Notes under the pieces: generated by a model
What the model was told of the DNA's origin: nothing
Seen by the model: the letters and a program-made list of their open reading frames with translations, nothing else
The model's database searches: none
In this document: in pieces, positions 1 to 1,987 of the stretch
Position numbering within the stretch: the stretch's first letter is position 1
Layout: every line of letters begins with the position of its first letter
NCBI GenBank assembly: GCA_021736445.1
Contig: JAIPGA010000003.1
Coordinates: 1-64,000, forward strand
DNA from: Synergistales bacterium
GTDB lineage: Bacteria; Synergistota; Synergistia; Synergistales; Aminiphilaceae
Length of the DNA: 64,000 bases
Direction of reading: 5' to 3'
Made by a program: the position numbers and the translations under genes

Positions 1-1724
1 CCTTCGGTGACCAGTTCGTCGCTCAACACCCGTCCCTCGTCGTCGAGAGGGGTGTTGGCACGTCCTACGTAGAACTCGTCTTCCTCGTCGGCCGAGAGAT
101 AGGTCACCTCGTCGGTCACCACGCCCTCCTCGACCCGGCGTTTGGGTGTCACCAGGAAGCCGTACTCGTTGATCCGGGCGTAGGTGGCCAGCGAGGTCAC
201 CAGCCCGATGTTGGGCCCTTCGGGGGTCTCGATGGGGCAGACCCTGCCGTAGTGGGTGTAGTGGACGTCACGGGCCTCGAAACCGGCGCGTTCGCGGCTG
301 AGGCCTCCCGGTCCCAGAGCGGAGAGACGCCGTCGGTGGGTGAGCTCCGAGAGGGGGTTGGTCTGGTCCATGAACTGCGAGAGCTGGCCGGAACCGAAGA
401 ACTCCCGCAGCGAAGCGGAGATGGGCCGGATGTTGACCAGCTCCCTGCCGGTGGCGCTGGAGAGATCCGGGATGGTGGTCATCCGCTCCTTGGCGATACG
501 CTCCATACGGAGCAGTCCGATGCGGACCTGGTTCTGGAGCAGCTCGCCGACGGCGCGCACCCGGCGGTTGCCCAGGTGGTCGATGTCGTTGGTCTGCCCC
601 TCGCCGTTGCGCAGGTCGATGAGACCCTTGATGATCTCCACGACATCCTCCACCGTCAGCAGCCGTCTGGACTCCGGAATGGCGAGACCCAGCCGCTTGT
701 TGGCCTTGTAGCGCCCCACGCGGCCGAGGTTGTAGCGCCGGGAGTCGAAAAAGAGGCTGTTGACATACTCGCGGGCCTGCTCCATCCGTGCGGGCTCGTT
801 GGGACGCAACCGACGGAAGAGTTCCAGAATGGCGGCGTCGGCGCTCCTGGTGTTGTCCCGCTCGAAGGTGGCCGCCAGGGAGCTGTCGACGTTCCAGATG
901 TGGACCCTGGTGCGTCCCAGGTTCCACAGCTCCTCCAGATGCTCCTTGGTGAGGCGGTCGTTCTTTTTGATCACCTCGTCGCCGGCATCGTTCACGATAG
1001 GCTCGGCGATGAGCCGCCCCCGCACCTCCTCCTCGATGAGCTCCACCTCTTCGGCGTAGCCGCCGAAGAGGTGGAGAATCTCATCCTCCTCGGCGATCCC
1101 GAAGGCCTTGAGGAGCATGGTGACGGGGATCTTCTTTCTGTTGTCTATATTGACGGAGAGCACGTCGCCGGGAGTGAGGTCGAACTCCAGCCAGGCGCCG
1201 CGGTCGGGGATCACCTTGGCCGTAAAGGTCTCCTGCCCCGGCACGCCGTCGCCGCCGCTGAAATACACGCCGGCGGAGCGGGCCAGCTGGTTGACCACCA
1301 CCCGTTCCGTTCCGTTGACGATGAAGGTTCCGTTTTCCGTCATCACCGGGAAATCGCCGAGGAAGATCTCCTCTTCCTTGATCTCCCCGTTTTTTCTGTT
1401 GACCAGTCTGATGGTTCCCCGGACAGGGCGGGACCAGGTCAAATCGCGCTGCCGCCCCTCTTCCTCGGAGATATTGGGGGGGCCGACATAGTAGCGGACG
1501 AATTCGAGAGCGAAGGAGCCGTCGTAACTTTCGATGGGAAAGATCTCTTCGAAGAGCTCCTGCAATCCTACGTGGCGCCGGTTGTCAGGGTCTTCCTCGG
1601 ATTGGAAAAAGGTTTGGTACGAGTTCCGCTGAACCTCGATCAGGTCCGGCAGATCCACAAGGTCCCGGGTGCGCCCGAATGTGTAGCGCTCCCGCCTCAC
1701 GTCCGTGGGGGCGACTTGCCTCAT
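1..1724 (-). CDS. rpoB: RNA polymerase beta subunit, N-terminal part (runs off left edge)
   Basis: Beta subunit of the core transcription enzyme. About 574 codons are visible, from ATG 1724 (GGAGGT about ten bases upstream) to the window edge, so the C-terminal half is missing. The rifampicin-pocket segment is clear near residues 445-475: SQFMDQTNPLSELTH followed by RRRLSALGPGGL. The Gln, Asp, His (residue 463) and Ser where resistance changes usually fall are all wild type. Next come THYGRVCPIETPEGPNIGL and the start of the following conserved block. Unusually, the gene directly upstream is a tRNA rather than rplL, so rpoB has its own promoter here. Identity is certain; only the length is unknown. 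Confidence 0.98.
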   Translation of the reverse strand, partial: MRQVAPTDVRRERYTFGRTRDLVDLPDLIEVQRNSYQTFFQSEEDPDNRRHVGLQELFEEIFPIESYDGSFALEFVRYYVGPPNISEEEGRQRDLTWSRPVRGTIRLVNRKNGEIKEEEIFLGDFPVMTENGTFIVNGTERVVVNQLARSAGVYFSGGDGVPGQETFTAKVIPDRGAWLEFDLTPGDVLSVNIDNRKKIPVTMLLKAFGIAEEDEILHLFGGYAEEVELIEEEVRGRLIAEPIVNDAGDEVIKKNDRLTKEHLEELWNLGRTRVHIWNVDSSLAATFERDNTRSADAAILELFRRLRPNEPARMEQAREYVNSLFFDSRRYNLGRVGRYKANKRLGLAIPESRRLLTVEDVVEIIKGLIDLRNGEGQTNDIDHLGNRRVRAVGELLQNQVRIGLLRMERIAKERMTTIPDLSSATGRELVNIRPISASLREFFGSGQLSQFMDQTNPLSELTHRRRLSALGPGGLSRERAGFEARDVHYTHYGRVCPIETPEGPNIGLVTSLATYARINEYGFLVTPKRRVEEGVVTDEVTYLSADEEDEFYVGRANTPLDDEGRVLSDELVTE

Positions 1725-1787
1725 GGGAGCTACGACCTCCCTGTTAGTAGAGTTAAAATCGTTGCGGGACAGATGTGACGAGCGTGC

Positions 1788-1816
1788 ATCATAGCAAAAG
1801 GGCCTCTCCGTGTCAA
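1788..1816 (-). promoter_or_regulatory. rpoB promoter, overlapping the tRNA-Leu terminator
   Basis: On the minus strand a consensus -35 TTGACA (1811-1816) is followed after exactly 17 bp by -10 TATGAT (1788-1793), which also carries the TGC of an extended -10. The predicted start is near 1781, giving a leader of about 57 nt before the rpoB ATG. The -35 lies in the loop and arm of the terminator hairpin 1798-1834, so the two signals share DNA. Confidence 0.8.
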
Positions 1817-1834
1817 TACACACGGATGGCCCTT
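1796..1834 (-). terminator. Rho-independent terminator of tRNA-Leu
   Basis: The outer arms AAGGGCC (1798-1804) and GGCCCTT (1828-1834) pair perfectly. An inner CCGTGT/ACACGG stem closes a small loop. On the minus strand the hairpin is followed by TTTT. It lies 19 bp beyond the tRNA 3' end. Confidence 0.8.
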
Positions 1835-1852: not shown

Positions 1853-1939
1853 TGGTGTCGGGAGGGGGACTTGAACCCCCACGGTCTTGCGACCACTAGA
1901 TCCTGAATCTAGCGCGTCTACCAATTCCGCCACCCCGAC
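1853..1939 (-). tRNA. tRNA-Leu (anticodon CAG)
   Basis: An 87-nt class II tRNA with encoded CCA (1853-1855) and discriminator A. The acceptor stem GTCGGGG pairs with TCCCGAC, ending in a G-U pair. The D arm (GGCGGAATTGGTAGACGC), the T arm with GTTCAAGTCC, and the long variable arm typical of leucine tRNAs are all present. The anticodon stem CTAGA/TCTAG encloses loop TTCAGGA, so the anticodon is CAG (1903-1905), reading CUG. It sits between sua5 and rpoB with its own promoter and terminator. Confidence 0.97.
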
Positions 1940-1958: not shown

Positions 1959-1987
1959 ATTGTAGCAATATACGGCGGCTTTGGCAA
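1959..1987 (-). promoter_or_regulatory. tRNA-Leu promoter
   Basis: Minus strand: -35 TTGCCA (1982-1987), 17-bp spacer, -10 TACAAT (1959-1964). The expected start near 1952 is about 13 nt before the mature tRNA 5' end. The same hexamers and spacing recur at greA (56271-56299). Confidence 0.8.

Follow-up and report, generated by a model that had tools for sequence, protein, structure and literature searches.

Can the terminator of one gene and the promoter of the next be the same piece of DNA, and are both kept there? The boundary between tRNA-Leu and rpoB in a Synergistales genome raises this question, and we analysed it within a 64,000-nucleotide stretch (hereafter the window). The first-pass annotation had placed a terminator hairpin at 1798-1834 and, inside it, the TTGACA of rpoB (1811-1816), with a 17-bp spacer to TATGAT. 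We consider it probable, at roughly 0.8, that 47 bases at this boundary form a conserved bifunctional terminator-promoter, which joins the terminator of tRNA-Leu to the promoter of rpoB. The features concerned are the following.

1788..1834, minus strand: composite terminator-promoter element (hairpin, U-tract, -35, extended -10), 47 bases
1798..1834, minus strand: tRNA-Leu terminator hairpin (5' arm, six-base loop, 3' arm), from fold and covariation
1811..1816, minus strand: rpoB -35 TTGACA, with TTG in the loop and ACA in the 3' arm
1796..1799, minus strand: U-tract of four U within the promoter spacer, read from the sequence
1788..1796, minus strand: extended -10, TGC then TATGAT (TATGAT at 1793-1788), from the promoter scan
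1853..1939, minus strand: tRNA-Leu(CAG)
1959..1987, minus strand: probable tRNA-Leu promoter TTGCCA-17-TACAAT, from the promoter scan
3..1724, minus strand: rpoB, 5' part, running off the window (TIGR02013, E 8.5e-206)
1736..1741, minus strand: rpoB ribosome-binding site GGGAGG, read from the sequence

The element runs 5' arm, loop GTATTG, 3' arm ACACGGAGAGGCCC with a pairing TT, then UUUU, GC and TATGAT. The final three bases of the loop and the initial three of the 3' arm together spell TTGACA, and the resulting minus-strand promoter (TTGACA-17-TATGAT) has 11 of 12 consensus matches, a 17-bp spacer and a TGN ahead of the -10. Folding of 1852-1780 gave -30.6 kcal/mol (z -5.1), a value equalled by none of 200 shuffles; the fold extends the hairpin by three weaker outer pairs (1837-1795), and the core stem is followed by four U (1799-1796). 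Fold and promoter scan together confirm the placement of hairpin, -35 and spacer, and the coordinates of hairpin and promoter overlap, as had been proposed when the two signals were said to occupy the same DNA. Besides this promoter, the scan listed just one promoter-like site within the first 6 kb, at 1987-1959; being directly upstream of tRNA-Leu (1939-1853), that site is probably the tRNA promoter. Our terminator scan of the window missed the hairpin at 1834-1798 because its rule requires at least five T in eight, and the four-U tract fails it. The terminator score of the element is 10.6, that is, above zero, although as the best of many windows it is optimistic.

The earlier claim that rpoB is parted from rplL is also borne out: rplL is on a different contig (C22), flanked by rplJ before it (read from the sequence) and by an endonuclease V gene after it. 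The window's own genome (G000) measures 2.45 Mb in 112 contigs and is 97.6% complete. We checked 33 of its tRNA genes (30 of 43 tRNA loci), of which 10 have a terminator in reach, 7 of these distinct; promoter overlap was seen at none of the other tRNA terminators in this set. Between the element and rpoB, two further features caught our attention. The GGGAGG ribosome site is complementary to a CTCCC just ahead of the rpoB ATG (1715-1745, minus strand), here and in many relatives; a hairpin formed from the two was rejected, its fold being no better than shuffles (z +0.78). A short motif, TCGTCA or TTTGTCA, recurs near the expected rpoB start in the window (about 1775-1787, minus strand) and in relatives, and reads TTGTACGATTGTACA in many genomes of family f8 (f and g denote family and genus labels assigned within our survey).

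This layout is conserved throughout the order. Of 180 genomes surveyed in the same GTDB order (which we infer to be Synergistales), 165 yielded rpoB, and the upstream regions of 150 of these 165 were examined; loci from a related-contig search (80 kept, none Synergistota by title) were set aside. A tRNA-Leu gene lies upstream of rpoB in the same direction in 98 of the 150 regions, is absent from at least 400 nt in 47, and could not be scored in 5 regions that were too short. Fusion is present in 86 of the 98 genomes with tRNA-Leu: 80 by a rule on the stem axis and 2 (f9) with another axis, all 82 assigned by script, and 4 on reading (G037 and G068, which are weaker, and G040 and G050, which lie beyond the search range). 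All four are matched by the covariance model described below (E 4.2e-5 or better). By genus, fusion occurs in 33 of 36 genera with tRNA-Leu versus 11 of 22 without. Comparison of this interval in related genomes had been proposed as a check, and its outcome is favourable. A promoter defined as TTGAC with a loose -10 is kept in 142 of the 150 regions, and of the 101 axis-centred cases, 91 have TGN ahead of the -10. As terminators, 83 of the 98 fused elements score above zero, again optimistically, each score being the best of many windows. The longest T run averages 4.5 across the 80 axis-rule fusions with tRNA-Leu, and the U-tract is often 3 in family f10, versus 4 in the window.

The 12 genomes of the 98 that have tRNA-Leu without fusion comprise 7 that are not fused and 5 without a TTGAC promoter. 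All six genomes of family f3 keep tRNA-Leu without fusion, and in the three that we read there is no clear separate terminator. G054 is also among the tRNA-Leu genomes without fusion; G067 has the hairpin and has lost the T-tract and -10; and fusion is likewise absent from two extra genomes with tRNA-Leu, G069 and G072. In G072 (locus L283), tRNA-Cys and tRNA-Leu stand immediately before rpoB with a gap of about 50 nt and no TTGAC promoter was seen, and rpoB may be co-transcribed with them. G159, counted as not fused, has by eye a possible remnant hairpin.

The position of the hairpin is tightly fixed relative to the promoter. Of 95 strong stems, 85 have their axis no more than 0.5 nt from the 5' edge of the -35. 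Among the 142 rpoB promoters in the order that could be scored, 98 have a hairpin whose centre falls within 1 nt of this edge, compared with 79 of 2,840 controls with shuffled flanks and 55 of 2,633 random positions. The fused arrangement, judged by these controls, is not a product of chance. We had tried a laxer hairpin rule (E <= -10, 8 pairs), which 83 of the 98 genomes with tRNA-Leu passed, and replaced it by the axis rule because 209 of 1,020 shuffled-flank sequences passed too. Under the lax rule 3 of 10 near-consensus promoters in the window's genome are nested: that of rpoB and two that look accidental.

Covariation of the arms provides further evidence. Among 52 of 77 distinct 36-mers, picked for stems on a common axis, 92.8% of cells are paired versus 69.2% in shuffles, and 212 paired cells have changed on both sides versus 66.6. 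Selection of this kind raises pairing by construction, and we therefore repeated the test on unselected sets, where the effect is smaller but clear. In 75 distinct 36-mers from 91 genomes with tRNA-Leu, the hairpin not being a criterion, 73.0% of cells are paired compared with 59.7% in shuffles (the highest of 300 being 62.3) and 39-45% when the axis is slid; cells changed on both sides number 229 versus 95.5 (maximum 126). All 142 genomes with a promoter give 64.7% versus 53.3% (371 versus 191.5 changed on both sides), and 51 genomes without tRNA-Leu give 53.4% versus 46.9% (125 versus 85.2), all such counts being inflated by kinship among the sequences. Even the sixth base of the -35 covaries with its partner, changing from UA to AU in 4 of the 52. 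Across these alignments the arms vary in sequence, yet the hairpin stays paired and the promoter hexamers persist, a pattern suggesting that both jobs of the element are under selection. Conservation across the order with covarying arms is our reason for regarding the dual function as real.

Nature has also taken the element apart. In 29 genomes the promoter is kept while tRNA and hairpin are gone (a TTGAC promoter, no tRNA-Leu in at least 400 nt, no centred hairpin), and family f8 supplies 21 of these. The remainder of the 47 genomes without upstream tRNA-Leu are 17 that are fused and one (G057) with the -35 in the 5' arm. The hairpin of G057 (locus L212) is distinct, with no tRNA-Leu within 900 nt, and is perhaps an independent fusion. 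Eleven f8 genomes keep the fusion after loss of the tRNA, and in 10 of these 11 a site resembling a promoter (11 of 12 matches) ends 61-77 nt ahead of the -35. Among 101 fused genomes, 17 have promoter-like sites before the hairpin. The direction of the upstream gene, considered as a reason for a hairpin without tRNA, was not readable from open frames. Conversely, tRNA-Leu is present and no TTGAC promoter was found in G107, G108, G110 and G111; the two that were read, G107 and G108, have a hairpin with 5 and 7 T and terminator scores of 26.3 and 56.4. In G128 and G129, tRNA-Leu(CAG) has been relocated and has its own terminator with about 10 and 7 T, which suggests that in the fused form it is the promoter that keeps the T-tract short.

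A covariance model (R1) shows where else such an element occurs. R1 was built from 41 sequences, including that of the window, and training sequences match by construction; it recovers the window element at its exact ends (1788-1834, E 5.4e-11), and the next match in the same genome has an E of 0.78, leaving the rpoB site as the only one there. A search of 185 genomes from the phylum gave a match at E <= 0.1 in 154, a figure that includes the 41 training sequences and weak matches that are not all at rpoB. Outside the order, four f11 genomes of another class (L278-L281) carry tRNA-Arg(CCG) instead of tRNA-Leu ahead of rpoB, with no clear fusion at rpoB in these four, so that the placing of a tRNA before rpoB may predate the fusion. 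G184, whose locus lay inside rpoB, was left out of this comparison.

A similar arrangement recurs beyond rpoC. At the boundary between rpoC and rpsL, a TTGA promoter is present at 58 of 59 loci, located between rpoC and the L7Ae-like, rpsL and rpsG genes (L272 756-802, L335-L349, L350-L379, L407-L426); G093 has no promoter, and G031 (L340; rpsL elsewhere) and five duplicate loci were excluded. A strong gapless helix lies around or over the -35 in 24 of 58 genomes from six families, compared with 48 of 5,800 shuffles. We used this helix test because a lax test was too weak (36 of 58 versus 434 of 1,160 shuffles). The window's own genome has no such helix at this boundary (helix weight 7.0). Many of the rpoC-side helices are without a T-tract, and they may therefore not be intrinsic terminators.

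How does the rpoB element compare with known systems? Like an intrinsic terminator, it has a GC-containing and stable stem-loop (-30.6 kcal/mol, z -5.1, with covariation) and then a T-tract just after a tRNA gene; unlike one, its T-tract is cut short by a -10, and a -35 sits in its loop and 3' arm. Like a housekeeping sigma promoter with an extended -10, it has TTGACA, a spacer within 16-18 bp, TGN and TATNNT, with -35 and -10 near consensus, but here the spacer doubles as terminator arm and T-tract. In E. coli, the frd terminator overlaps the ampC start region, with the ampC promoter upstream in frdD and the hairpin in the ampC leader. In both cases the terminator of one operon overlaps the region where the next operon starts, whereas here the -35 itself is within the hairpin. 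E. coli also has a partial terminator (attenuator) between rplL and rpoB, inside the rplJL-rpoBC operon. That too is a hairpin ahead of rpoB, but the present one follows a tRNA gene and has a promoter inside. Polymerase recycling offers another parallel, in that a terminator and a sense promoter lie within mutual reach. In the two published studies, restart in vitro followed 37% of termination events, or 55% with added sigma (PMC6978380), sense restart occurred in <2% of retained molecules with antisense restart preferred, and coupling of genes by a sense promoter near a terminator was named as a possibility (PMC6978322). Those studies concern in vitro templates and antisense starts, whereas here the distance is zero and the element is evolutionarily conserved and known from sequence. 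A literature search that scarcely covered subscription papers found no description of this element.

As RNA, hairpin and U-tract would end the tRNA-Leu transcript. As DNA, the loop, 3' arm, T-tract and TGN-TATNAT would provide the -35, spacer and extended -10 of a housekeeping rpoB promoter. We infer that both termination and initiation occur at the element in the cell. On termination, the active site of the polymerase would come to rest within the promoter spacer; if so, tRNA-Leu termination and rpoB initiation would exclude each other in time, and by this exclusion the outputs of the two genes would be coupled. The sign of the coupling (occlusion, hand-off or neither) is not given by the sequence. 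Termination may be leaky, because the U-tract is short (four in the window). It is unlikely for most genomes that rpoB is served by readthrough only, because the TTGAC promoter is kept, even in the 29 genomes without tRNA and hairpin.

There may be no regulatory link at all, if two ordinary signals merged long ago and neither can now be lost alone. Fusion does track tRNA-Leu (86 of 98 genomes with it versus 18 of 47 without), and after tRNA loss 29 of the 47 drop the hairpin and retain the promoter; yet 18 tRNA-less genomes are still fused, another promoter-like site reads into 10 of the 11 in f8, and fusion recurs at the rpoC-rpsL boundary. We regard such a merger as plausible, and would stop short of calling it probable. 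Distinctly improbable, to our minds, is a role as an attenuator, in which rpoB is also reached by readthrough transcription begun at the tRNA promoter or at another one upstream, and a leaky hairpin sets the amount passing: the short U-tract, the upstream promoter-like sites of 17 fused genomes and the E. coli partial terminator would agree with it, but the hairpin contains a near-consensus promoter, and no antiterminator fold was seen on reading the leader sequences. That the palindrome is a protein-binding site over the -35 is scarcely credible. Its axis is indeed fixed relative to the promoter, but arm sequence is not conserved, and the arms change freely with compensation while pairing holds, which an operator would not allow.

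The two signs of coupling can be weighed in the same way. The first-pass annotation had suggested that heavy tRNA transcription might interfere with rpoB initiation; in such an occlusion, passing and terminating polymerases would block the promoter, and strong tRNA-Leu transcription would lower rpoB initiation. The footprints of terminator and promoter overlap fully, as this would require, but a harmful block should favour separation, and 33 of the 36 genera with the tRNA retain the fusion; occlusion could instead be a wanted negative link. Overall we find it doubtful. The opposite sign would arise if the polymerase that releases tRNA-Leu remains at the rpoB promoter, binds sigma and restarts, with tRNA transcription feeding rpoB. 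In vitro, polymerase is usually retained on the DNA after intrinsic termination and can restart at nearby promoters (PMC6978380, PMC6978322), the distance here is zero, and a relay would accord with both the promoter-like sites ahead of the fusion in genomes that lack the tRNA and the second fusion beyond rpoC. On the other side stands the rarity of sense restart, with antisense preferred, in PMC6978322, and we consider a hand-off unlikely.

The conserved bifunctional terminator-promoter, our preferred reading, has one stretch satisfying an RNA-structure code and a promoter code together, an overlap that simple annotation tools miss, as our terminator scan did. Restart itself is known from single-molecule work, whose authors raised the coupling of genes by terminator-adjacent promoters, and natural loci for testing this are wanted. 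The element is a natural locus at which to test whether a stopped polymerase restarts at the next gene: it combines zero distance, an essential gene, many genera and natural variants lacking tRNA, hairpin or promoter. A wider scheme, which we think improbable, is a relay at rpoBC in which transcription of an upstream unit, either tRNA-Leu or a promoter standing in for it where the tRNA was lost, ends on the rpoB promoter and polymerase is handed onward, in many species also from the hairpin at the end of rpoBC to the rpsL-rpsG promoter. If that were true, selection would have used terminator-promoter fusion to couple the genes for tRNA, polymerase and ribosome.
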